A DNA stretch of 14,418 nt from Candidatus Poribacteria bacterium (GTDB taxonomy: Bacteria; Poribacteria; WGA-4E; B28-G17). Below the pieces are notes generated by a model that was given only the letters and a program-made list of their open reading frames with translations, searched no databases and was not told the origin of the DNA. How positions within the stretch are numbered: position 1 is the stretch's first letter; every line of letters begins with the position of its first letter. Shown here one piece after another: positions 271 through 14,328 of the stretch. Position numbers and translations under genes: made by a program. Location: contig QNBQ01000008.1 of assembly GCA_003645735.1 (NCBI GenBank), positions 1 to 14,418 of the forward strand, given 5' to 3'.

Positions 271-3200
271 ATGATCGGGCGGTTGAGGTTTCTAAGCTGC
301 TTCGTCGTTTTGAGCCTGGTCATCTGTGCCCTCTCCACCGCTCAGACCCTCTTCCCTCTGCCGAAAGTGGGGGAGATCGGCACCTGGGAGGCGGAGAGGG
401 CCGAGATGAGAGGGGAGTGGGAGCTGAGACGGGATCCCTCCGCCAGCGGAGGGATATACCTCAAACCCCGGAGGGTCGAAGAGGGGGTTGAGCTGATCTT
501 CCCAGTCGAGACGCCCCGCCCGGTGGACCTCAGGGTATGGGCGCTTTTGTGGAGGCACAGCGACAGGCGCCCTGTCAGACGGTTCCCTTATCCGCTGGAG
601 CACAGGCCCGGCCCGGACGTCATCGATCTGTGGGAGATCGGCGGCAAACGCCTCTTGTTTTTCACATGTCCTGAGGCAGGGAGGGTGGCTGCCTTCGATC
701 CCCAAAGCGAAAGGGTCATCAACTCCGTCGATTTGAGGGGATACATCGCCGATCTGGTGATCGATAGGGTCTCAAATTCGATCTACGTCGCGAACTCGAC
801 CGAGGAAAAGGTTCAGGTGCTCGCACCGTCCGATCTCTCCCTGAGAGGCGAGATTTCGATCGATGGGGCGCCGTGGACGATGGCGATTGATGGGAGGCGT
901 CTATATGTGGGCTGCCTCAAGGGGAGGAAGGTGATCTGTATCGACTTGGAAAGCCGCTCCATCTCGGCGGAGGCGGCCCTGCCCTGGGAGGTGGCGCATC
1001 TGGAGGCGGAAGGGGATGGACGGCTGATCGTGTGGCTCGAGCCTGTCGTCATCGATCTCGAGACGTTCAAGCGGATATATGCCGACAGGGAATGGTATGG
1101 ATTCGCCAGGAGGCGGTCCGCTGAGGTGGGAAATCGGAACAGGCCCGGTTGGGTGCGCTTCACCTCCCCCTCGCCCCATAAGCTCCGGGTTGAGGCGGTG
1201 ACCGAGGAGGGGAGGGTCTCCAGGGAGATAGACGTCCGGCCCGTGACAGAAGGGCCGAAGGTCCTCGAAAGCTTCCCCGAGCCGTTGAAGGAGACGCCCG
1301 GTCCGGACGCCATGGTGATCTCGGCCGGCAAACTGTTCTTCACATCCCCCTCCACCGGCAGGGTAGGGGTGGTGGACGTCGGCACCGGCGAGCTAGTAAA
1401 GGTGATAGATCTGGGGGGATACCCATCCGATATCGCCTCGGATCCCACGAGAGGCAGGCTATTTGTCTCGGATGCTTTGGGAGACAGGGTGGTGGCGATA
1501 GATCCGGTGAAGCTGAGCGTGGTGGGGGAGGTGAGGGTTCCGGGCATGCCGGTGGCCCTGGAGACGTTCGCGCCGCCCGGATGGCTGAAAGGGTGCGGCT
1601 CAGAGCTGTTCGTCGCCTGCTGGAAAACGAGGAAGGTGGTGAGGGTGGATCCGGGCGAGCTGAAGGCGACCGGTGAGGTGGATCTCCCGGCTGAACCTCT
1701 GCTTTTGAAGGCCATCACGCCTCCGAACAACAGCTGGTGGCCGCTGATACCGTCCGACCGGATAGAGCTGGAGCTCCGCACCAGGTTGGCCGTCTTCCTG
1801 GCGCCGATCTCGCTCGAAAAGAGGACGCTGCATAGGATCGGCCACGCCCTCGACGTCAGCCCCCGTTTCAGCCGGCGAACCTCCGTCTCGATCGATCTGG
1901 GGGGAGGCATGAGCAAGAGGTTCAGCGTGGATAACAACCTCACCGTTCGAATCGCCCTGGTGGATGCCGAGGGGAGGACGGTCGAGGAGAGATGGGCGGA
2001 TGTGAGCTCGGTGAGCGATCCTCAGCTCGCACCTCCTATCCCGCTCAGCAAGTATGATCGGCCCGGGCCGTTAACCATATCGTTGGACGATGGGCCGGAG
2101 TATCCGTGGCGGAGGGAGATATGGATGACGCCCGATCAGATGCAGTTCCTGGTCGATGGGACGGAGGAGTTTTGGAGGTGGAACGCGCCCGTTCTCCATC
2201 TATCGCCCGGCAGGCACCTCATCAGGGTCAAGGCATATAGCCCGTTTCTCATGATAGATGCCCTCAAGGTCGAGAGGACGGCCGAGGGAGCGGTGAGGGT
2301 GAAGGTGGTAGGCGAGCCGCCGTGCGCCGAATCGATACCCGAGAGATATCGATCGCTGTTCTACCATGATGAGCCGGTCAGGTTCAGGATCGAGCTGCGA
2401 AACCTGCTTAACACCCCCCAGAAAGTGCACTTGGACTATGAGGCGAGGAATTATATGGACGAGGTGGAGGATATCGGGGGAATGGACCTGATCCTCTCGC
2501 CGCTTGAGAGCCGATCGCATCTAATCGAACTCGAGCTGAAAAGCACCGGGACGTTCACCTTGACGATCGCCCTCACCTCCCCGCGCGGGCGGATCGTCAG
2601 GGAACACAGGTTCGTCAGGGTTCCGAAGTTGGAACATCCCAGGATGCTGTTCAGGAGGGAGGATATACCGAAGATCGAGGACAGGATAGCCAGATATCCC
2701 AGGCTGTTCAGGCGATATTTCGAATGGCTCAGGAGGGAGTGCGAGAGGGAGGGGTTCCTGCCGGCCGGGATCGCCCGATCGACCTTCGTGCCCGCCCTCC
2801 CGGAGGCTCAGCGTAAGCTCCCCTCACAGGGGGGGTGGAGGAGGTATGAGCTGGGGTGGCGGATGTTGGCCGTTCAGTTCGGAGCGATGTTCGCGCCCGA
2901 TCCGGAGCTGAGGGAATACTTCAGGTCGAGGATAAAGGAGATCCTCAAGGACGCTCGGACGGACGGATACTGCACCTTCCACCACCACGGGCCGTTCTTC
3001 CCCGGCGCGGTCGCGACGCTTTTCGACATGGTCGCCGCTACCCCGGGCGAGGCGGACGAGGAGGTGGAGAAGCTGCGCGAGTTCTTCAACAGATATCTAG
3101 GGGATATGAACGTGCTGCCCTGGACGCTGGCGTCGATCGAGGAGCCGCTCACCCCGAGGGAGAGGGCGATACTGTGGCATATAGGGATGTGGCTGTCGAA

Positions 3201-4833
3201 CGTCGACAGATACTTCACGCTCCACCAGGGCAAACGCGGGGGCCGGAGATGGCTCAACGAGAGGACGGGGTGTCACTGCCCACTCGCCGGCTACGGGTAT
3301 TCGTTCCTCTACTTGAGGAACGTGTTCGGGGAGAGGAGGTTCCACCGAAAGAAGCTGGTCTACGGGTTCCTCACCCACTCGGAGCTCGTCCGGCCGATAA
3401 ACGATAGGAGGAGGATGCTCGGGCCGGTCGGGCCTCTGGGGGAGCCGATCAGGTGGATCGACGGGGCGTTGAGCGGGCATCCTCTCGAGAAGTGGAGATA
3501 CGGCTGGGATAAGCTGATAATGGAGCTGTCAAAGCCGGAGATCTCAAGCGAGGAGGTGGACGAGCTGTTGAGGTTCGAGGAGTCGGCTTCGACGACGAGG
3601 GCGATGGCGTTTGTGGTGCCGATCGCCCTGGCCTTGGGCTGGTACGAGCCGGGCTCCCCCGAGGTGACGCTTGAGGAGCTTCCCCCAACGCTGCTGTTCG
3701 ACGGCGAGGGGGATGTGGTGATGCGGTCCGATTGGAGCGCCGGGGCGACCGAGGTGATCTTCAGATGCGGCATAAGGGATCACGTCTACCGACATCGGCC
3801 CACACACCTGATGATAATCAAAGGCGGTGAGTTCCTGCTGGGAACGGCCTCCTCATATGGGGATGACGGGAACCCGAACCCGGGCAAGAGCTGGGGGAAC
3901 GTCGTTGTTATCGAGCCGTCCGATTGGATGAGGAGATGGGGCGAGAACTTGAGACATCCCAGGGCGGAGGAGCTCCTCCTCATAAACAGGTTCTCCGATC
4001 CGACCTTCAGGTATATCGTGCGGGAGAGAAGGCTTGTGGGATACGCCCCGGCCGAGGGGGGATGGGGCGGCGGCATCGATCTCCACGGCCACACCGAGTC
4101 GCCCTTGATCAAAGAGGGGGAGATAATCGCCTATGAGACCAGCCCGGAGTTCGATTACGTGGCGGGCGATGCGACCTGCTCGTGGGATCTGGGACTCGCC
4201 GAGGAGGTGTACAGACAGGTGGTGTTCGTCAAACCCGACGTGGTGATCGCTTACGACCGGGTCATGCTTGGGCCGAAAGCGGAGAGGGCATACTGGGTGG
4301 GAGCCGTGGGCCCGGAGCTGAGGGTCGAGGGCAACCGGTTCACCGTTAAAGCCGGGTCGGAGACGATGCGCGGGTGGGTGATCCTCCCCGAAAACCCGAA
4401 GCTCGAAACCTTCGACCCCTCTAAGCCGAACAAATACACCAAAACGCCTCCGTTCAGCATCTCCTACAGCTGGTATCTGTTCGACGGCAGGACGAAACAC
4501 CAGAAGGTCCTGGAGATACATCGCTTGACCCCCTCCAAGAAGCTGGAGTTCCTGGTTTTGATGCACGTCGGCGAGGGCGAGATAGAGGTTGAACCCCTGG
4601 TGGACGACCGGTATGCCGCCATCGGGTTCTTAATCGATGGGAGATGGGTTAAGGTGAAGTTCAGGCGCTCCGGGCCGATCGGCGGCTCGATAACGATCGT
4701 GGGCGATGAGATCATCGAACGCGAGTTCGCTGAGAAGGTGGAGGACGACTACAAACGGTGGGCGGAAGACCCCAGGTTTAAGCTCTGGATGACATCGCCC
4801 CGATTCGGATTTCTGCATCTGAGCGAGGAGTGA
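271..4833 (+). CDS. Giant secreted beta-propeller / heparinase II/III-like protein
   Basis: This 1520-residue protein is probably exported and acts on, or binds, polysaccharide. Residues 1-24 form a Sec signal peptide (hydrophobic run FLSCFVVLSLVICAL, cleavage near A-Q). Two YncE/NHL-like propeller segments with repeated GRV..(F/V)D and IYVA/LFVS strands cover about 112-285 and 342-485. Beta-rich linker domains follow to about 780. An alpha-helical part (about 788-1130) begins HPRMLFRREDIPKIEDRI, as in the toroid domain of heparinase II/III and alginate lyases. The last part (about 1143-1470) resembles the heparinase II/III C-terminal beta-sandwich (GDVVMRSDWSAGATEVIF). The usual HxHxD motif is replaced by histidines at 1171, 1175 and 1179 with no Asp, so activity is uncertain. 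The ATG at 271 follows a purine-rich GAGGGGG site. The next gene starts about 5 bases after the stop. Confidence 0.8.
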   Translation: MIGRLRFLSCFVVLSLVICALSTAQTLFPLPKVGEIGTWEAERAEMRGEWELRRDPSASGGIYLKPRRVEEGVELIFPVETPRPVDLRVWALLWRHSDRRPVRRFPYPLEHRPGPDVIDLWEIGGKRLLFFTCPEAGRVAAFDPQSERVINSVDLRGYIADLVIDRVSNSIYVANSTEEKVQVLAPSDLSLRGEISIDGAPWTMAIDGRRLYVGCLKGRKVICIDLESRSISAEAALPWEVAHLEAEGDGRLIVWLEPVVIDLETFKRIYADREWYGFARRRSAEVGNRNRPGWVRFTSPSPHKLRVEAVTEEGRVSREIDVRPVTEGPKVLESFPEPLKETPGPDAMVISAGKLFFTSPSTGRVGVVDVGTGELVKVIDLGGYPSDIASDPTRGRLFVSDALGDRVVAIDPVKLSVVGEVRVPGMPVALETFAPPGWLKGCGSELFVACWKTRKVVRVDPGELKATGEVDLPAEPLLLKAITPPNNSWWPLIPSDRIELELRTRLAVFLAPISLEKRTLHRIGHALDVSPRFSRRTSVSIDLGGGMSKRFSVDNNLTVRIALVDAEGRTVEERWADVSSVSDPQLAPPIPLSKYDRPGPLTISLDDGPEYPWRREIWMTPDQMQFLVDGTEEFWRWNAPVLHLSPGRHLIRVKAYSPFLMIDALKVERTAEGAVRVKVVGEPPCAESIPERYRSLFYHDEPVRFRIELRNLLNTPQKVHLDYEARNYMDEVEDIGGMDLILSPLESRSHLIELELKSTGTFTLTIALTSPRGRIVREHRFVRVPKLEHPRMLFRREDIPKIEDRIARYPRLFRRYFEWLRRECEREGFLPAGIARSTFVPALPEAQRKLPSQGGWRRYELGWRMLAVQFGAMFAPDPELREYFRSRIKEILKDARTDGYCTFHHHGPFFPGAVATLFDMVAATPGEADEEVEKLREFFNRYLGDMNVLPWTLASIEEPLTPRERAILWHIGMWLSNVDRYFTLHQGKRGGRRWLNERTGCHCPLAGYGYSFLYLRNVFGERRFHRKKLVYGFLTHSELVRPINDRRRMLGPVGPLGEPIRWIDGALSGHPLEKWRYGWDKLIMELSKPEISSEEVDELLRFEESASTTRAMAFVVPIALALGWYEPGSPEVTLEELPPTLLFDGEGDVVMRSDWSAGATEVIFRCGIRDHVYRHRPTHLMIIKGGEFLLGTASSYGDDGNPNPGKSWGNVVVIEPSDWMRRWGENLRHPRAEELLLINRFSDPTFRYIVRERRLVGYAPAEGGWGGGIDLHGHTESPLIKEGEIIAYETSPEFDYVAGDATCSWDLGLAEEVYRQVVFVKPDVVIAYDRVMLGPKAERAYWVGAVGPELRVEGNRFTVKAGSETMRGWVILPENPKLETFDPSKPNKYTKTPPFSISYSWYLFDGRTKHQKVLEIHRLTPSKKLEFLVLMHVGEGEIEVEPLVDDRYAAIGFLIDGRWVKVKFRRSGPIGGSITIVGDEIIEREFAEKVEDDYKRWAEDPRFKLWMTSPRFGFLHLSEE
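604..855 (+). repeat. Internal propeller repeat, copy 1 (residues 112-195)
   Basis: This segment runs from a PGPD motif through FFTCPEAGRVAAFDP, a Val-Asp-Leu-Arg-Gly-Tyr stretch, IYVANS and an LRGEI end. It aligns almost without gaps to 1294-1533. The protein similarity is clear by eye (PGPD, LFFT, GRV, VDL/IDL-x-GY, D.V, LSL/LSV, GEI/GEV), while the DNA has diverged, so the duplication is old. Confidence 0.6.
1294..1533 (+). repeat. Internal propeller repeat, copy 2 (residues 342-421)
   Basis: This is the second copy of the module at 604-855: PGPD, LFFTSPSTGRVGVVDV, an Ile-Asp-Leu-Gly-Gly-Tyr stretch, LFVSDALGDRVVAIDP and LSVVGEV. The two copies are separated by about 146 residues, which include a Trp/Arg-rich beta segment. 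They suggest either two separate small propellers or one propeller built from two halves. Confidence 0.6.
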
Positions 4834-4838
4834 GGGGG

Positions 4839-5813
4839 ATGTCCCTTCCAGGTGAGGTGATGCGGTGGGCTGTTCTGATATCGGCGGTGGCGGCTTTGAT
4901 ATCGGGATGTGGCGGGGAGGAGAAGCTCATAATATTCCACGCCGGAAGCCTGTCGAAGCCGATGGCCGATCTGGTCGAGGCTTTCAAGAGGCTTCACCCG
5001 GAGGTGGAGGTGCAGAGGGAGGCCTCGGGGAGCCTTGTGGCGGCGAGAAAGGTCTCGGAGCTGAGGAGGGAGGCCGACCTGGTCGCCGTGGCCGATTACA
5101 AGGTGATAGAGGCCATACTGATGCCCGATTACGCCGACTGGTATGTGAAGTTCGCCGGCAACCGAATGGTGATCGCCTACACCGAGAGGAGCAGATATGG
5201 GGATGAGATCAACTCCGATAACTGGTTCGAGATACTCGCTCGGAAGGACGTGAGGTTCGGCAGATCGGACCCGAACATGGATCCATGCGGATACAGGACG
5301 TTGATGGTGTGGCAGCTGGCGGATATCTACTACAAGGACAGGCTCAAGGGGAGGAGCATATATGAGACGTTGATGGAGAACTGTCCCCCGAGCAACATAA
5401 GGCAGGGCTCGGTCGAGCTGCTGCCCCTGCTGGAATCGCTCGACTTGGACTACGCCTTCGAGTATCTCTCCGTGGCCAAACAGCACAGGCTGAGATATGT
5501 GGAGCTTCCCAGGGAGATCGACCTGAGCGATCCGGATCTGGAGGAGCTCTACGCCAAGGCTCAGGTGAGGATAACCGGTAAGAAGCCGGGGGAGTACATA
5601 GTGATCAAGGGATCGCCCATAGTGTACGGCGTGACGATCCCCAAGGGCGCCCCACATTATGATTTGGCGGTGGATTTCCTCAAGCTGATGTTGAGCGAGG
5701 AAGGGAAGAGGATAATGGATGAGAACGGTCAACCGCCGATCGATCCGCCCCTGGCGGTCGGCGTCCGGAACATGCCTCCGGAGCTGAGGGAGCTGGTGAG
5801 GGGTGAGCGATGA
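4839..5813 (+). CDS. wtpA: Tungstate/molybdate-binding lipoprotein, WtpA family
   Basis: This is the substrate-binding lipoprotein of a tungstate/molybdate ABC importer. A short signal peptide ends in the lipobox LISGC, with the lipidated Cys at residue 24. The mature protein follows WtpA closely: LIIFHAGSLS, QREASGS, MPDYADWYVKFA, INSDNWFEIL, DPNMDPCGYR, DYAFEY-SVAKQH and VTIPKGAPH. Asp148 (NMDPCGYR) and Glu208 (DYAFEY) correspond to the two carboxylates that complete six-fold metal coordination in archaeal WtpA/ModA. I chose ATG 4839 because GAGGAG lies 8 bases upstream. GTG 4830 and ATG 4860 are alternatives, and the last gives a more compact signal peptide. The length of 324 residues is typical. 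Its stop overlaps the next start in ATGA. Tungstate is more likely than molybdate by family, but specificity cannot be read from the sequence. Confidence 0.92.
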   Translation: MSLPGEVMRWAVLISAVAALISGCGGEEKLIIFHAGSLSKPMADLVEAFKRLHPEVEVQREASGSLVAARKVSELRREADLVAVADYKVIEAILMPDYADWYVKFAGNRMVIAYTERSRYGDEINSDNWFEILARKDVRFGRSDPNMDPCGYRTLMVWQLADIYYKDRLKGRSIYETLMENCPPSNIRQGSVELLPLLESLDLDYAFEYLSVAKQHRLRYVELPREIDLSDPDLEELYAKAQVRITGKKPGEYIVIKGSPIVYGVTIPKGAPHYDLAVDFLKLMLSEEGKRIMDENGQPPIDPPLAVGVRNMPPELRELVRGER

Positions 5814-6610
5814 GAGGGGCGATTGCGCGGCTCATCTCCATATCGCTCTTCCTCTTCATCCTGCTGGCCTGCACGTATGATGAGGAGAGGCTGATCATCT
5901 TCTACGACTCAGCCCTGTCGGGCGCTATGGAGGAGCTGATCGGGAGGTTCGAGAAGATCCATCCGGAGGTAAAGGTCGAGGCCGAGCCGTCCGAGCCCAT
6001 GGGCGCTGTATGTAAGGTGATCGATTTGAGGAGGGAGGTGGACCTGGTCATATCCGATCCTGAGCTGATCGAGAGGATGCTCATGCCCAGGAAGCTGTTC
6101 ACCCCGAGCTACGCCGATTGGCTCATAAAGTTCGCCGCCGACAGGTTGGTGATCGCCTACGCGGATTCGAGCCGATACGCCGGGGAGATAAACGCCGCCA
6201 ACTGGAGGGAGGTTCTGTCGAGAAGAGGGGTGAGGATCGGATGTTTCGACACCGCGAGAGTGCCGATGATCCGGGGGTTGAAGGTGAAACGGTATGAGGT
6301 GGATGAGCTGACGAGAGCGGTCGGATCGGGCGATCTCGATTACGCCCTGCTCCCCTTGTCGGCCGCCCTGCGAGGTGAGCTGAGGTATATCGATCCGCTC
6401 AAGGGCGATGCTGGCAGGATATCATACGCCGCGACGATCCCCAAGGGCGCTCCCCATCTGAGACACGCCCTGATGTTCCTCGATCTCCTCCTCGGCGAGG
6501 AGGGCAGGAGGGTTCTGAGGGCGAAGGGATATCAACTCATAACACCCGCCGAGGCCAAGGGGAGGTCAAAGGTTCCGAGGAAGCTGAGGCGATATGTTGG
6601 GAAGGGATAA
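5810..6610 (+). CDS. Second WtpA-like lipoprotein with a degenerate oxyanion pocket
   Basis: This 266-residue paralogue of the preceding WtpA begins at an ATGA overlap. Its signal peptide ends in the lipobox LLAC (lipidated Cys21). Shared blocks include LIIF, MLMP, PSYADWLIKFA, SSRYAGEIN, NWREVLSRRGVRIG, DLDYA and ATIPKGAPH, so homology is clear. The ligand elements are not kept: FHAGSLS becomes FYDSALS, REASGS becomes AEPSEP, the Asp of NMDPCGYR becomes Val151, and the Glu of DYAFEY becomes Leu181 (DYALLP). About 60 residues are missing, mainly between the two ligand-bearing segments and in the second lobe. It therefore probably does not bind tungstate or molybdate in the known way. It may bind another anion or act as an accessory subunit. 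The frame is intact and codon use matches the neighbours, so decay looks unlikely. Confidence 0.8.
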   Translation: MRGAIARLISISLFLFILLACTYDEERLIIFYDSALSGAMEELIGRFEKIHPEVKVEAEPSEPMGAVCKVIDLRREVDLVISDPELIERMLMPRKLFTPSYADWLIKFAADRLVIAYADSSRYAGEINAANWREVLSRRGVRIGCFDTARVPMIRGLKVKRYEVDELTRAVGSGDLDYALLPLSAALRGELRYIDPLKGDAGRISYAATIPKGAPHLRHALMFLDLLLGEEGRRVLRAKGYQLITPAEAKGRSKVPRKLRRYVGKG

Positions 6611-7802
6611 GCTGGGATACGCCTTCGCCTTCGGATCCGTAACCGCGATCCACCTCCTCCTCTTGTCTCGCCTGATGGATTGGGGGACCAACCTGGTCAA
6701 TCTGTGCGCCGACCTCTTCTTCCTGTGCCATGGGCTCATCTGGTCGAGGAGATCGAAGGGGTTCAAGTGGTCGATCTATCTGGCCGGATATCTGATCCTG
6801 TTCCTTCTCCTGGTGGTCTATGCCGGCAGATCCCTTCTCTTCCCGCTGCTCCTGATCCTGTACGCCGCCGTGTATCGATCGCCCAAGCTGATGGGGTATC
6901 TGGTGATCTTCATCTTATCGATACTCCTCCTGACCCCCTACTGGGTTCAGAGCCTGATCACGTTCAGCTTGTTCTATTCCGTGCTGTTAGCCGTCGGCGG
7001 CGCGAGAGGGGAGCGGTTTCACCTCGTGATGTTCGCCCTCGGATTCCCGTTGCTCTGTTTCATCCTGTTCCCCCTTCTTTATCTGCTTTTTCAGAGCGCC
7101 CCTCAGACCTTAGCCGCCACTTTGAAGCGGGGCGATTTCCGCTCAGCCCTGCTCACCAGCCTGCTGACCGCCACCATCACCACTTTGATCTCGTTGTTTT
7201 TCGGCGTGCCGTTGGCTTATGCCATGGCGAGGATGGAGTTCAAGGGCAAGAGGGCGTTGGAATCGCTGCTGTCCATCCCGATCCTCACCCCACACACGAT
7301 CGTCGGTATAGCGCTGCTGGTGATGTTGGGGCCGAAGACGCCGATCGGCGAGTTTTTCAGGAGGACGCTCGGGGTGAGCATAGCCGGCAGTCATCTCGGG
7401 GTGGTGGCCGCTCAGGTCTACGTCAGCTCGCCTTTTCTGTTTTTCAGCGCTATGAACGGGTTCCAATCGATAGATCCGAAGCTGGAGAGGATCAGCCGGA
7501 GCCTGGGCGCCTCCCCTTTGAGAACCTTCTTCAAGGTTTCCCTCCCGCTGGCCGCGCCTTCGATATTTGAAGGGTGTGTGATGACTTGGTCGAGAGCCCT
7601 GTCGGAGATGGGGAGTTTAATGGTTCTGGCCTACCACCCGTTCACCATCTCCACCTTCACCTATGACGTCTTCACCCAATACGGCCTTTCGGAGGCTCAG
7701 CCCGTGGCGATCCTTTTCCTCATAATCTGTCTTTGGATCTTCATTCTCCTGAGGTGGATCAGGGAGCAGCCCGCCGCGAAGGCTTTTATCTTCAGCAGAT
7801 GA
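6594..7802 (+). CDS. wtpB: Tungstate/molybdate ABC permease (WtpB/ModB type) with extra membrane N-terminus
   Basis: This is the inner-membrane permease of the importer. Residues about 145-395 are a standard binding-protein-dependent permease domain, with TSLLTATITTLISLFFGVPLAYA, the SIPILTPHTIVGIALL segment and an EAA-type cytoplasmic loop at about 297-318 (LERISRSLGASPLRTFFKV) that contacts the ATPase. WtpB/ModB proteins are usually about 230-270 residues. This one has about 140 additional N-terminal residues with some four or five hydrophobic helices (about 10-50, 60-95, 100-135) that I do not recognise. The ATG at 6594 overlaps the preceding gene by 17 bases and has GAGG 5 bases upstream. 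The next gene follows about 10 bases after its stop. The permease call is sure; the substrate comes from the neighbouring WtpA. Confidence 0.85.
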   Translation: MLGRDKLGYAFAFGSVTAIHLLLLSRLMDWGTNLVNLCADLFFLCHGLIWSRRSKGFKWSIYLAGYLILFLLLVVYAGRSLLFPLLLILYAAVYRSPKLMGYLVIFILSILLLTPYWVQSLITFSLFYSVLLAVGGARGERFHLVMFALGFPLLCFILFPLLYLLFQSAPQTLAATLKRGDFRSALLTSLLTATITTLISLFFGVPLAYAMARMEFKGKRALESLLSIPILTPHTIVGIALLVMLGPKTPIGEFFRRTLGVSIAGSHLGVVAAQVYVSSPFLFFSAMNGFQSIDPKLERISRSLGASPLRTFFKVSLPLAAPSIFEGCVMTWSRALSEMGSLMVLAYHPFTISTFTYDVFTQYGLSEAQPVAILFLIICLWIFILLRWIREQPAAKAFIFSR

Positions 7803-7812
7803 GGTCTGGGAG

Positions 7813-8895
7813 ATGATCGAGCTGAAAGGTGTTCGAAGGAGATGGGGGGGTTTCTCCCTTAAAGGGATAACGTTGAGGGTGGAACGCGGGGAGTATTTCG
7901 TTCTCCTGGGGCCGTGCGGGGCGGGTAAGACCTTGCTGCTGGAGACGATAGCCGGGTTTTGGCGGCCGGATGAGGGGGAGATATGGATAAACGGCAGGGA
8001 CGTCACCCATATCCCGCCCGAGAGGCGAAACGTGGGGTTCGTATATCAAGAGTATGGGCTTTTCCCCCATCTATCGGTCAAGGAGAACATCTCCTACGGC
8101 TTGAGGGCTAGGGGATACTCGAGGAAAGAGAGGGAGAGGAGGGTGCGGGAGGTGGTCGAGATGCTCGGCATAGAGGAGCTCCTCGATCGGGGGGAGGTGG
8201 GCTCGTTAAGCGGAGGTGAGAAACAGAAGGTCGCCCTGGCGAGGGCTCTGGCGGTGAAGCCCGATGTGTTGCTCCTGGACGAGCCTTTACACTCGCTCGA
8301 CTATAGCTCAAGGGAACGTGCCTACGCCATGTTGAAGGAGGTGAACAGGGGGCTGAACCTGACGGTCATCCACGTGACGCATGATTACTCCGAGGCGCGC
8401 GCTTTGGCCGGCAGGATAGGCGTGATGAACAACGGTCAACTGGTGCAGGTCGACCGACCTGAGGAGGTGTTCGATCGGCCCAAAACCGCGTTCGCCGCCC
8501 GTTTTCTAGGCGTTGAGAACCTGTTCAAGGGCAAGATCAAACGGAACGAGGGCGGCCTGCTCGTGATGAAAGTGGGCGGGCTCGAGGTGAAAGCGCTGGG
8601 GGGGGGAGAGGTCGATCCGGGGGGGATATGTATCAGGCCGGAGGAGGTGCGGGTATCGCGCGAGCCCTTAAGTTTGGGAAACGATTTCGAGGGCGTGGTG
8701 CGTGAGATATCGGATAGGGGCGCTTTCATAAGGGTATCGGTTGACGTCGGAGATGTGCGGTTCATCTCACACCTCCCCCGACGCGATTTCCTCAGATCTC
8801 ATCTCTCAGTCGGCGAGCGGGTTTACCTCGGTTTCAGCCCTGAATCGGCCTGCGTCCTGATCGATGACGAGGAGGAGATGGATGAGCCTGCATGA
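7813..8895 (+). CDS. wtpC: ABC transporter ATPase with TOBE domain, tungstate/molybdate importer
   Basis: This is the cytoplasmic ATPase that powers the WtpAB importer. All nucleotide-binding motifs are present: Walker A GPCGAGKT (33-40), Q-loop Gln79, signature LSGGEKQ (132-138), Walker B VLLLDEP (152-158) and the H-loop His190 in VTHDYSEA. The D-loop region reads LHSLD where many relatives have LSALD. Residues about 235-350 form a C-terminal TOBE-like domain (ICIRPEEVRV, then DFEGVVREISDRGAFIRV), which in ModC/WtpC proteins often senses oxyanion. The length of 360 residues is normal. The start is the first ATG after the permease stop, with GAGG about 8 bases upstream. The C-terminus overlaps the next gene by 14 bases, which suggests translational coupling. 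Confidence 0.9.
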   Translation: MIELKGVRRRWGGFSLKGITLRVERGEYFVLLGPCGAGKTLLLETIAGFWRPDEGEIWINGRDVTHIPPERRNVGFVYQEYGLFPHLSVKENISYGLRARGYSRKERERRVREVVEMLGIEELLDRGEVGSLSGGEKQKVALARALAVKPDVLLLDEPLHSLDYSSRERAYAMLKEVNRGLNLTVIHVTHDYSEARALAGRIGVMNNGQLVQVDRPEEVFDRPKTAFAARFLGVENLFKGKIKRNEGGLLVMKVGGLEVKALGGGEVDPGGICIRPEEVRVSREPLSLGNDFEGVVREISDRGAFIRVSVDVGDVRFISHLPRRDFLRSHLSVGERVYLGFSPESACVLIDDEEEMDEPA

Positions 8896-9868
8896 TCTCT
8901 TCGGGTTGATCGTCAGAAAGATCGTGACCCGTCCCCTGATACCCGTGGCTAACAGCTGGATAGATGCCACGCCGTTCATCCTGATCTCCCTCTTCCTCTC
9001 CCTTTCAGGCCTCTTTCTGTGGAGGTTCGGGCGGGAGGAGCGGGCCAGATGGGCGTTGAGGGCCGTTTCCACCTTCGTCTTCGTGATCTTCCTTCATAGA
9101 TGCCTCTGTATGCTTCGGGACGCCGTAGGGGGCATCGCTGAGGTGGGCAGGGATGATCTGAGGGCGTTCGGTCAGCTCTGTATCTTCACCCCACTGCTCG
9201 GCTTCTCGCTGACGCTGGGCCGGGCGTTCTGCGGATGGGTTTGCCCCCTAGGTTTCCTCCAGGAAGGGATCGGCAGGATCGCGCTTTTCAAGAGGGAACG
9301 GCTCGGGAGGAGATCGAAGGCGGCGGATCTGATCCTGCTTGTCCTCGTCTCGTTCATCGCCATCCGAATGCTCATCGCCTTCAAACCCTCCACGGATTTC
9401 CTCACGGAGAACGTGGCGGCCTGTTTCAGCATACTGCTGCTTCTGATCATGTTCCCCGCGCTTTTGAGCCGACGTTTGGCCGAGAGGCTGAAGAGGGTGA
9501 GGTATCCGGCGCTGGGGATCTGGATGACGTTGGTGGTTATCAGGGTTTTCGTGACCAACCCTTGGTGTGTGCTTTACGGAGGCGAGCTCGATTACTCCTC
9601 GCTGTTGGCGCTGTTCGTCGTGCTGAGCACCTCACTTCTGATCCCACAGGCGTGGTGTCGATATATCTGTCCTCTAGGGACCTTCCTCTCGCTGATATCT
9701 AAGATATCCCTTCTCAGGTTTGGAAGCACCGGTAAATGCGCGGGGTGTGGGGAGTGCGATCGGGTCTGCCCGATGGGCGCCATCGAGAGGGGGAAACTGG
9801 ATCTGTCAAGCTGCATCTACTGCGGCAGATGTTTGAAAGGATGCGTCGGGAGGCTTGAGCTGAGATGA
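8882..9868 (+). CDS. NapH/NosR-like membrane polyferredoxin
   Basis: This membrane iron-sulfur protein probably passes electrons between the quinone pool and a periplasmic or membrane partner. It has about six hydrophobic segments. Two CxxxCP motifs typical of NapH/NosR/YccM proteins occur (FCGWVCPLG, Cys117/121; WCRYICPLG, Cys259/263). Two C-terminal 4Fe-4S motifs follow: CAGCGECDRVCP (Cys286, 289, 292, 296) and CIYCGRCLKGC (Cys311, 314, 317, 321). In NapH-type proteins these sit on the cytoplasmic side. I start at ATG 8882 because GAGGAGGAG lies a few bases upstream; ATG 8864 would add six residues. It overlaps wtpC by 14 bases and the next gene by ATGA. NosR's N-terminal FMN domain is absent. 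The family call is firm; the electron partner is unknown. Confidence 0.85.
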   Translation: MSLHDLFGLIVRKIVTRPLIPVANSWIDATPFILISLFLSLSGLFLWRFGREERARWALRAVSTFVFVIFLHRCLCMLRDAVGGIAEVGRDDLRAFGQLCIFTPLLGFSLTLGRAFCGWVCPLGFLQEGIGRIALFKRERLGRRSKAADLILLVLVSFIAIRMLIAFKPSTDFLTENVAACFSILLLLIMFPALLSRRLAERLKRVRYPALGIWMTLVVIRVFVTNPWCVLYGGELDYSSLLALFVVLSTSLLIPQAWCRYICPLGTFLSLISKISLLRFGSTGKCAGCGECDRVCPMGAIERGKLDLSSCIYCGRCLKGCVGRLELR

Positions 9869-11154
9869 GGATCGCGGTGATCCTCCTCCTCGTTCAGATC
9901 ATCGGGTCGACCGAATGGCCCTTCTTCGGGGGCGATCAGGGTCATACCGGTTATAAGCCCCAGGTGGACTTCACATCGGGGGAGCTCCGGCTGAGGTGGC
10001 GTTTCGATCTGGGGGAGCACATCTGGAGATACAGGCGGGGCGTGAGCGTTTGGTCATCATCGCCGGTGGCGGCGGAGGTGGACGGCAGGATGCTCGTATT
10101 CGTGGGAGCTTACGATCAAAACCTCTACTGTCTGGACGCCCTCAGCGGGGAGAAGGTGTGGGAGTTCACGACCGGCGGGGCGTTGAGCTCCGCCCCGGCT
10201 TTCGATTGGGTGAACGGCGAGCCCACGGTCTTCGTCGTCTCGTCCGACAGGACCGTCTACGCCCTCGACGCCAGGAACGGTAGGAAGAAATGGTGTTATG
10301 AGACGTTGCCCTGGAGCTATACGATCTGTGAAGCGGTCCCCTCATCCCCTGTCGTAGGGGAGATCGAGGGCAGGAGGGTCGTGATCTTCGGCATATGGAA
10401 CTCGGATAAGAGGCCGATCAAAGGGTTTCAACGCGGCGAGCTTTTCGTCCTAGACGCCGCTACCGGGGAGAAGGTGTGGAGCGAGGTCATCTCGACCACC
10501 TATCTCTCCTCGCCAGCATACGCCCTTATCGATGGATCGCCCTTTATCTTCATAAGCTCGTCCGCCGGGGAGGTTCGCTGTCTGGAGGGCGAGACGGGAA
10601 GAACGGTTTGGAGGTTCACCGCCGGGGCCGAGGTGAGATCATCGCCTACCGTGGGGGAGGTGAGCGGGAGATGGGAGGTTTTCATAGGAACGAGGTTCGG
10701 CATGCTCTACGCTCTGGACGCCCGGAGCGGGGAGGTGATCTGGAGCTACAAGGCGGGCCATGCCATAGATTCCACCCCGGCCCTGGGCGAGGTTAAGGGC
10801 CGGCCAGTCCTGTTCTTCGGATCCTACGATCGAGCGGTTTACGCCGTGGACGCCCTCACGGGCCGGAAGCTGTGGCGGTTCATCACAGGGAAATACATCA
10901 CAGCATCCCCCGCTGTGGGAAGGATTGGGGGGAGGACGGCCGTCTTCATATGTTCGCTTGACGACAGGATCTACGCGATAGATGGCGAGACGGGGGAGCT
11001 GATCTGGAGCTACAGGGGCGGGGGAAGGGTCTGGCCGTATGAAACGAGAGGCGAGAGTTTATGGTCGTCGCCGATAATCATCTCGTCCGGTGGTGAGCCG
11101 CTTCTCCTCTTCCCCTCCTACGATGGAAGGCTATACGCCTTCTGCCCGCGCTAA
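9865..11154 (+). CDS. Exported PQQ-like eight-bladed beta-propeller protein
   Basis: This 429-residue protein is built almost entirely of PQQ-type propeller repeats of about 40-50 residues. Each has the pattern (V/I)F(I/V)G..D..(V/L)YALDA.(T/S)G...W.(F/Y), for example LYALDARSGEVIWSY and VYAVDALTGRKLWRF. Seven full repeats run from about 73 to 400. The last strand (PSYDGRLYAF, about 417-426) pairs with the N-terminal WRFDLG segment, giving about eight blades. The N-terminus RIAVILLLVQIIGS is a signal peptide or anchor. The ATG lies in an ATGA overlap with the polyferredoxin, which suggests a shared role. Tryptophan-docking positions are present, but I cannot identify residues that bind PQQ, so it may be a BamB-like scaffold or binding protein rather than a quinoprotein enzyme. 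Confidence 0.8.
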   Translation: MRIAVILLLVQIIGSTEWPFFGGDQGHTGYKPQVDFTSGELRLRWRFDLGEHIWRYRRGVSVWSSSPVAAEVDGRMLVFVGAYDQNLYCLDALSGEKVWEFTTGGALSSAPAFDWVNGEPTVFVVSSDRTVYALDARNGRKKWCYETLPWSYTICEAVPSSPVVGEIEGRRVVIFGIWNSDKRPIKGFQRGELFVLDAATGEKVWSEVISTTYLSSPAYALIDGSPFIFISSSAGEVRCLEGETGRTVWRFTAGAEVRSSPTVGEVSGRWEVFIGTRFGMLYALDARSGEVIWSYKAGHAIDSTPALGEVKGRPVLFFGSYDRAVYAVDALTGRKLWRFITGKYITASPAVGRIGGRTAVFICSLDDRIYAIDGETGELIWSYRGGGRVWPYETRGESLWSSPIIISSGGEPLLLFPSYDGRLYAFCPR

Positions 11155-13504: not shown

Positions 13505-13572
13505 GGCGGGAAAGTTTCATAACGGGTTCATTGAAAGCGATATCTGAAAAACCTGAGAAGGGAGGGAACGGG

Positions 13573-14328
13573 ATGAGGATATGCCTGATAACCTTAGTGC
13601 TCGCCCTAATGACGGCAGGCCTGGCCTTAGGGGCGAAGGATGAAACCCTCGTCCTCTGCCTCTCCTTCGATGATGAAACGACCACCGATCTCTCAGTATA
13701 CAACAACCAGTGTGAGCCTAAGGGGAGCATATCCTTTACGGACGGGAAGTTCGGTAAGGCGATACAATTTGAACCGGGCAGCTATGTTGAGATACCGACC
13801 TCCGATTCGCTCAATCCCGACCTCTTCAAGGGGGAGTTCACCATAGCGATGTGGATCAAGCCGACTATGACGGGTGACACATGGGAGCATCTATGGCGCA
13901 GCAGGCCGGTGCAGTCGGGGCACAACACTTTATTCATAAACGTCAACGGAACGGTCTCCTGGAGAGGGATGGTCGGAGGAAACTGGACCGTGTTGTGTGA
14001 GACGGGGGCTGGGACGGTCAAGGCAGATGAGTGGACACACGTGGCGGTGGTGAGCGATAAGAGCAACTTCATCATCTACGTGAACGGAGAAGAAGCGGCT
14101 AAGAGCAAATTTCAAGAGACCGACGGCAACATACAAACCTATTTCCTGGCGAACGACGGGATATCGGCCGAGAGATACGCGGGGGCGATGGACGAGGTGA
14201 GGGTCTGGAACAGGGCGCTTTCGAAGGATGAAATAGTCGATACGATGAACAAAGGAGCTTCGGAGTTGTTCCCCGTCTGCTCCATTGGCTCGCTGCCGGC
14301 GATTTGGGGCGCTTTGAAGGGGAGGTGA
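13573..14328 (+). CDS. Secreted LamG-domain protein
   Basis: This 251-residue exported protein has a signal peptide (MRICLITLVLALMTAGLALGA) followed by one LamG/concanavalin-A-like domain (about 25-230). Its marks are LCLSFDDETTTDLS, FGKAIQFEPGSYVEI, FTIAMWIKP, WTHVAVV, IIYVNGE and MDEVRVWNRALSKDEI. Such jelly-roll domains bind glycans or calcium. The C-terminus ends SLPAIWGALKGR, a short tail that I associate, from memory, with LamG proteins of Poribacteria. I start at ATG 13573 with GGGAGG about 6 bases upstream; the upstream TTG at 13531 lacks a signal-peptide-compatible start. There is no obvious promoter between 13505 and 13572, so it may be read from the tgt unit. No catalytic residues are recognised. 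Confidence 0.8.
   Translation: MRICLITLVLALMTAGLALGAKDETLVLCLSFDDETTTDLSVYNNQCEPKGSISFTDGKFGKAIQFEPGSYVEIPTSDSLNPDLFKGEFTIAMWIKPTMTGDTWEHLWRSRPVQSGHNTLFINVNGTVSWRGMVGGNWTVLCETGAGTVKADEWTHVAVVSDKSNFIIYVNGEEAAKSKFQETDGNIQTYFLANDGISAERYAGAMDEVRVWNRALSKDEIVDTMNKGASELFPVCSIGSLPAIWGALKGR
14321..14328 (+). promoter_or_regulatory. Ribosome binding site overlapping a stop codon
   Basis: GGAGGTGA is a perfect match to the anti-Shine-Dalgarno sequence. It contains the TGA stop of the LamG gene and lies three bases before the ATG at 14332. It confirms that the short open frame at the right edge is a real gene start and that the two genes are translationally coupled. Confidence 0.65.

Follow-up and report, generated by a model that had tools for sequence, protein, structure and literature searches.

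Binding proteins that share a permease

In the usual picture of an ABC importer, a single permease is supplied with ligand by one or several binding proteins. Two of these, paralogous or otherwise related, may serve the same importer, as HisJ and LAO do with HisQMP2 and ArtJ and ArtI with ArtQMP2, and precedent for such sharing is on record in the consulted portions of PMC5708682 and PMC6640053. Here we consider a 14,418-nucleotide stretch (the window) of contig QNBQ01000008.1 (C8) from a Candidatus Poribacteria bacterium, a genome of 76.6% completeness, in which the gene for the tungstate/molybdate-binding lipoprotein WtpA (wtpA1) is followed by a paralogue, wtpA2, and then by the permease gene wtpB and the ATPase gene wtpC. 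Unlike the HisJ/LAO and ArtJ/ArtI pairs, whose members bind related amino acids, WtpA2 is a copy in which the anion loops of the pocket have changed. The sharing of a permease is already known; a WtpA pair with one altered anion site was not found in searches of the open-licence PMC literature, judged by titles and abstract starts, in keeping with an earlier interpretation made from the DNA letters alone (the sequence-only reading), which knew of no such pair. The core of that reading, in which a WtpA paralogue has given up tungstate binding of the WtpA kind and is kept beside a working copy, draws sequence support from the first two anion loops, which are altered in all four members found of the clade to which WtpA2 belongs.

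Compared with WtpA of the WtpABC system (TIGR03730, NF003196; PDB 3cg1, 3cij, 3k6u), WtpA2 falls below both equivalog cut-offs (NF003196, 133.2 bits against 355; TIGR03730, 110.6 against 242.75), has altered loops 1 and 2, has a replaced ligand Asp in the window protein, is 61 residues shorter than WtpA1 and carries a six-residue insertion. In rows of ModA its identity is 11-20%, and the window protein is without the Ser, Ser and Tyr positions of ModA. It is no closer to the metal-citrate-binding protein MctA than to other neighbours of the same fold. The features concerned are as follows, in window coordinates:

4830..5813, + strand: wtpA1, 327-aa lipoprotein that binds tungstate/molybdate; 385.5 bits against NCBIfam WtpA, above the cut-off of 355
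5810..6610, + strand: wtpA2 paralogue of 266 aa, with a lipobox (LLAC, 18-21), a predicted ModA-like fold complete in both lobes, and altered anion loops
5903..5914, + strand: WtpA2 loop 1, residues 32-35, where His-Ala-Gly-Ser is replaced by Tyr-Asp-Ser-Ala (by alignment)
5984..5998, + strand: WtpA2 loop 2, residues 59-63, where Glu-Ala-Ser-Gly-Ser is replaced by Glu-Pro-Ser-Glu-Pro (by alignment)
6086..6106, + strand: region of the six-residue insertion, WtpA2 residues 93-99 PRKLFTP, common to the four proteins of the WtpA2 clade and absent from 119/119 other rows (sample given below)
6260..6262, + strand: Val151 codon of WtpA2, facing the tungstate-ligand Asp; Asp in the orthologue of genome G001, Gly in the related proteins P0020 and P0030

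WtpA2 as a relative of WtpA

Family matches and the predicted model indicate that WtpA2 is a true WtpA relative with a binding-protein fold and the WtpA framework. It is 36% identical to WtpA1 (itself matched to PDB 2onk_E at E 5.8e-84), its top matches are solved WtpA chains (MJ1186, E 2.7e-27), and the ten best Foldseek matches and nine best VIA matches of its model (pLDDT 93.9) are WtpA or ModA-WtpA chains. The motifs YADW, EIN..NW and IPKGAPH are retained, and a lipobox (LLAC, Cys21) with a predicted helix at residues 2-21 marks it as a lipid-anchored binding protein of an ABC importer. The lipobox Cys is also present in the orthologue of G001, a genome of the same family and another genus; the best stretch of this orthologue likewise stays under the WtpA cut-off (111.4 bits).

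The open reading frame is intact; its start lies within the wtpA1 stop (ATGA overlap), and its end overlaps the start of wtpB by 17 nt, an overlap that is identical in G001, where wtpA2 begins either at a GTG with an 8-nt overlap onto wtpA1 or at an ATG right after the wtpA1 stop. Framework motifs, lipobox, some 60 missing residues and placement by ATGA overlap between wtpA and the permease had all been described in the sequence-only reading, and each was borne out.

The anion site

In P. furiosus WtpA the metal-ligand pair is Asp160/Glu218 according to the parts of PMC10221389 and PMC4139814 consulted, and mutants of Asp160 lose affinity and selectivity according to the part consulted of the former, a review. 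The pair was placed by hand count on the 3cg1 chain (D132 and E190, 58 apart like 160 and 218), and in the alignment to this chain Asp160 corresponds to Asp151 of WtpA1 and Glu218 to Ser194, not to Glu211. In WtpA2, Val151 faces Asp151 and Leu181 faces Glu211 of WtpA1. The earlier claim that both metal-coordinating carboxylates are lost therefore stands as to what these two residues face, but the Asp is kept in G001, and Glu211 is not the ligand Glu218. The neighbouring copy, called intact in that reading, scores above the family cut-off and keeps Asp151, but at the canonical Glu218 it has Ser194.

At the Glu218 position the 121 aligned rows (P0020, P0030 and the two WtpA1 among them) have Ser in 57, Ala in 27 and Glu in 37, such that the canonical Glu is missing from 84/121, WtpA1 among them; depending on the alignment, WtpA2 has a gap or a Val here, with a Glu one residue before the Val. 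Glu218 is thus not diagnostic within this set of rows and marks no difference between WtpA2 and WtpA1, and, with so many relatives here lacking it, the two-carboxylate site of the crystal structures does not cover the whole family. The Glu211 column has Ile in the M. acetivorans, A. fulgidus and P. furiosus chains and Glu in 106/119 other rows; Glu211 accompanies Ser or Ala at 194 in 80/82 rows and Glu at 194 in 26/37 (Fisher p 4e-5, the rows being related), a hint that Glu211, beside a conserved Tyr, may be a relocated carboxylate in WtpA1 and similar WtpA.

The difference between the two paralogues lies elsewhere. Loop 1 reads YDSA rather than HAGS and loop 2 EPSEP rather than EASGS, so that the WtpA loop signatures (HAGS, (A/S)GS) are absent from WtpA2, as are both ligand carboxylates. 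The change of both loops in 4/4 clade members upholds this part of the sequence-only reading. The ligand Asp is more variable, being lost in WtpA2, retained in the G001 orthologue (DDPSG) and replaced by Gly in P0020 and P0030. In A. baumannii ModA, as described in the part of PMC11734730 consulted, contacts to the anion come from backbone NH groups of four residues and from the hydroxyl of a Tyr (S39, S66, V150, V177, Y195). Judged by order and spacing, Ser40, Ser68 and Tyr212 would be the equivalents of S39, S66 and Y195, and at these WtpA2 carries Ala, Pro and Pro. The lobe A loop residues 32, 33, 35, 60 and 63 are identical between the two genera, whereas 151 (V/D), 211 (L/T) and 212 (P/R) differ.

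Two trivial explanations of the altered site were set aside. A compensated frameshift might underlie the loss of Asp, in that another frame reads ADDPG, but the in-frame IRGLKV matches YRTLMV of WtpA1 when read by eye, so a plain substitution and a one-residue gap suffice. Sequencing error was considered as well; the database cluster of WtpA2 has two members on two contigs (the representative, P0001, is one residue off by eye), and thus the altered loop is not an artefact of a single assembly. As a separate observation, the Asp-loop of P0020 and P0030 contains many Cys and His residues (P0020 reads GCCHQDIGHCGYH), possibly a metal site.

A wider clade with full-length members

Searches with WtpA1 as query found P0020 (330 aa) and P0030 (328 aa), full-length proteins on contigs of 1349 and 2528 bases, and WtpA2 groups with them in a quick tree of 72 rows (SH-aLRT 98) and in a careful tree of 30 rows (97/97). 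A duplication inside the Poribacteria family is disfavoured by these trees, though a topology constrained to unite the WtpA1 and WtpA2 proteins of both genomes passes the AU test (p-AU 0.111), and the WtpA2 branches are long.

The four clade members were compared with 119 other rows, a near and redundant sample. WtpA1 had 4852 hits, of which the best 120 were listed; the sample takes 117 of these, leaving out P0003, P0020 and P0030, and adds WtpA1 of the two genomes. All four have the six-residue insertion, which sits before the P.YA(D/E)W motif and occurs in 0/119 others. Four substitutions are shared as well: Ala38Asp (Ala in 118 of the others, a gap in 1), Asn111Asp (Asn in all 119), Gly67 to Glu or Lys (Gly in 118, Ala in 1) and Ser40 to Ala or Asn (Ser in 116, Thr in 2, a gap in 1); four re-alignments concur on these columns. 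Of 76 near-invariant columns (at least 95% one residue in the 119 others), ten are changed in 4/4 members, 32 are kept in 4/4 and 34 are mixed; seven of the ten have a residue in all four proteins (38, 40, 44, 67, 82, 111, 301), and three are partly gapped (156, 191, 254). With gaps counted, 34 of the 76 are changed in the window protein, 31 in G001, 17 in P0020 and 16 in P0030, against at most 12 (median 1) in any other row. Loss of Arg156 and Arg191 in all four was a further candidate that had to be dropped: it holds for G001, P0020 and P0030, but window WtpA2 is gapped there in four alignments and has Gly156 with Arg191 kept in a fifth.

By these sequence comparisons WtpA2 is part of a wider clade with full-length members and not a mere truncation. 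Since the changes of loops 1 and 2 occur in short and full-length members alike, they most simply preceded the shortening, and the site was not dismantled in one step, given that Ser68 and Tyr212 are kept in P0020 and P0030 and the Asp in G001. Among the 120 best WtpA relatives, nine (P0041, P0060, P0072, P0077, P0078, P0082, P0085, P0105 and P0115; 453-514 aa) also match PF00174, the sulfite-oxidase-type molybdopterin-binding domain, and are apparently WtpA fused to an oxidoreductase domain.

Distribution

WtpA2 was found in 2/84 genomes of the phylum, that of the window and G001. The G001 orthologue is 61% identical over the matched part, stands in the same gene order and has a more complete middle part; an orthologue in the same place in a second genus means that WtpA2 is not a chance occurrence. 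A class-wide search for the WtpA family gave matches (E up to 0.001) in 8/82 genomes, many genomes of the class being incomplete; six matches are weaker, and the two above the cut-off belong to the two WtpA2 genomes, so the pair is present wherever a full WtpA was found in the class. G001 is thus the only other class genome with a WtpA above the cut-off, and there the gene is intact, whereas absence or breakage of the paralogue in every near relative would have refuted the sequence-only reading.

A database search with WtpA2 returned two proteins, WtpA2 and an orthologue of the G001 type (P0002). A profile of the two sequences matched 48 proteins, with scores of 532-557 bits for the two orthologues against 226 for WtpA1 and 148 for the protein after it, and all apart from the two orthologues have at least 286 aa; scoring was limited to the candidates with the most words in common, and neither P0020 nor P0030 was among the matches, so that absence from this search is weak evidence. 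Three loci from a contig scan, all in Pantoea, with 35-37% identity over residues 3-57, were taken as remote. Both genomes have AFOR_C genes (1 and 3 matches) and molybdopterin oxidoreductases (likewise 1 and 3), which fits a user of tungsten or molybdenum and has no bearing on WtpA2 itself.

What WtpA2 might do

Our tentative proposal, which we hold at somewhat less than even odds, is that WtpA2 is a WtpA paralogue turned into an accessory lipoprotein of the one importer, WtpBC, and does not capture tungstate or molybdate. WtpA1 would supply aldehyde ferredoxin oxidoreductase-type enzymes with tungstate, while WtpA2 would act mainly through lobe A. It would probably dock on WtpB or on its neighbour WtpA1, for instance setting basal transporter activity as a competitor or as a spacer that needs no ligand. 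With an Asp in anion loop 1 and the loop Ser lost, oxyanion binding by WtpA2 is unlikely. If the proposal is true, a selected paralogue without anion contacts, still in its operon, would offer a natural test of whether a cargo-free binding protein acts on a transporter.

Estimates of selection bear on this proposal. WtpA2 is under selection: by NG86, dN/dS is 0.27 for WtpA2, 0.12 for WtpA1 and 0.13 for WtpB, and it ranges from 0.12 to 0.19 in the six neighbours compared. Segment limits follow binding-protein topology, the N- and C-terminal segments presumably forming lobe A and the middle lobe B. By segment, dN of WtpA2 and WtpA1 is 0.24/0.18 in the N-terminal part, 0.59/0.08 in the middle and 0.20/0.17 in the C-terminal part; most of the excess change of WtpA2 thus falls in the middle, where WtpA1 is most conserved (84% identity). 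Of the options named in the sequence-only reading (a binding protein for another anion, a regulatory or docking subunit, a decoy), the first is disfavoured, as far as oxyanions go, by the Asp fixed in anion loop 1, and such relaxed change in lobe B leans towards the second.

It should be stressed that several points weigh against the accessory role. The dN/dS values rest on NG86 with dS above 1, and the dN of the gappy middle segments is inflated by misalignment; the WtpA2 models were built on alignments mostly of WtpA and may be biased to that fold; the genomic context of wtpA2 is known from two genomes only; and the site is unequally dismantled across the clade, with Ser68 and Tyr212 retained in P0020 and P0030 and the Asp in G001. 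Moreover, Ala38Asp and Asn111Asp, identical in all four proteins, are compatible with selection for a new ligand as well.

This last point belongs to the chief rival, a possible though less probable case in which WtpA2 binds another ligand (a metal ion, a metal-organic complex or a cationic compound, not an oxyanion) and shares WtpBC with WtpA1. A protein for one ligand should keep both halves of its site, as WtpA1 does; in WtpA2 the lobe A loops are kept but 151, 211 and 212 vary between the two Poribacteria, and we therefore favour, with moderate confidence, an accessory role via lobe A over a new ligand. Extended to the whole clade, the accessory role becomes less probable: its members may be ligand-free or polarity-changed subunits whose oxyanion site was taken apart (Asp in loop 1, an acid in loop 2) and whose lobe B was free to shrink. 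Lobe A alone would then have stayed under constraint, serving the tungstate importer as a lasting partner for docking or regulation, perhaps jointly with the additional N-terminal membrane domain of WtpB.

It is unlikely, in our estimation, that WtpA2 is a decaying duplicate nearing loss and held in frame mainly by the overlap of its stop with the wtpB start (translational coupling). Its dN/dS above that of all six neighbours, and deletions that differ between the two genomes, with Asp lost in the window and not in G001, would be expected of decay, but dN in its N- and C-terminal segments is near that of WtpA1, the gene is open in two genera, and Asp38, Asp111 and Glu67 are shared with full-length P0020 and P0030, so that they did not pass directly into decay. 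That WtpA2 still binds tungstate or molybdate through hydrogen bonds only, like ModA, with lower affinity or other selectivity, is very unlikely, as the window protein has other residues at the equivalents of Ser40, Ser68 and Tyr212 and carries an added Asp beside the anion site.

Neighbouring genes

On the + strand the order is the gene of a 1520-aa protein, wtpA1, wtpA2, wtpB, wtpC, and genes for a NapH-like ferredoxin-type membrane protein and a PQQ-type propeller protein, the transporter genes being:

6594..7802, + strand: wtpB permease, 402 aa; NCBIfam WtpB 263 bits at residues 145-391, below the cut-off of 340
7813..8895, + strand: wtpC, ATPase of 360 aa carrying a TOBE domain; 374 bits against NCBIfam WtpC, below the cut-off of 440; Pfam ABC_tran and TOBE_2

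Ahead of the WtpB-like part (145-391), WtpB has a hydrophobic N-terminal extension of about 140 residues (6594-7025), for which a Pfam search at E up to 1 gave no match. The extension is present in 2/84 genomes of the phylum, the two with wtpA2, and is a possible partner of WtpA2.

A scan of the window with Rfam at gathering thresholds gave no match to a Moco or tungsten riboswitch. Upstream, the 1520-aa protein (271-4833), whose end meets the wtpA1 start, is 75% identical to its G001 counterpart, and its sole Pfam match is sub-threshold (SGL, E 0.007). The NapH-like Fer4 membrane protein and the PQQ-type beta-propeller protein (8864-11154) follow wtpC in both genomes and perhaps point to a redox process tied to the tungstate importer. 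Further downstream, 13531-14328 encodes a LamG-like protein (Laminin_G_3, Pfam E 3.3e-27).
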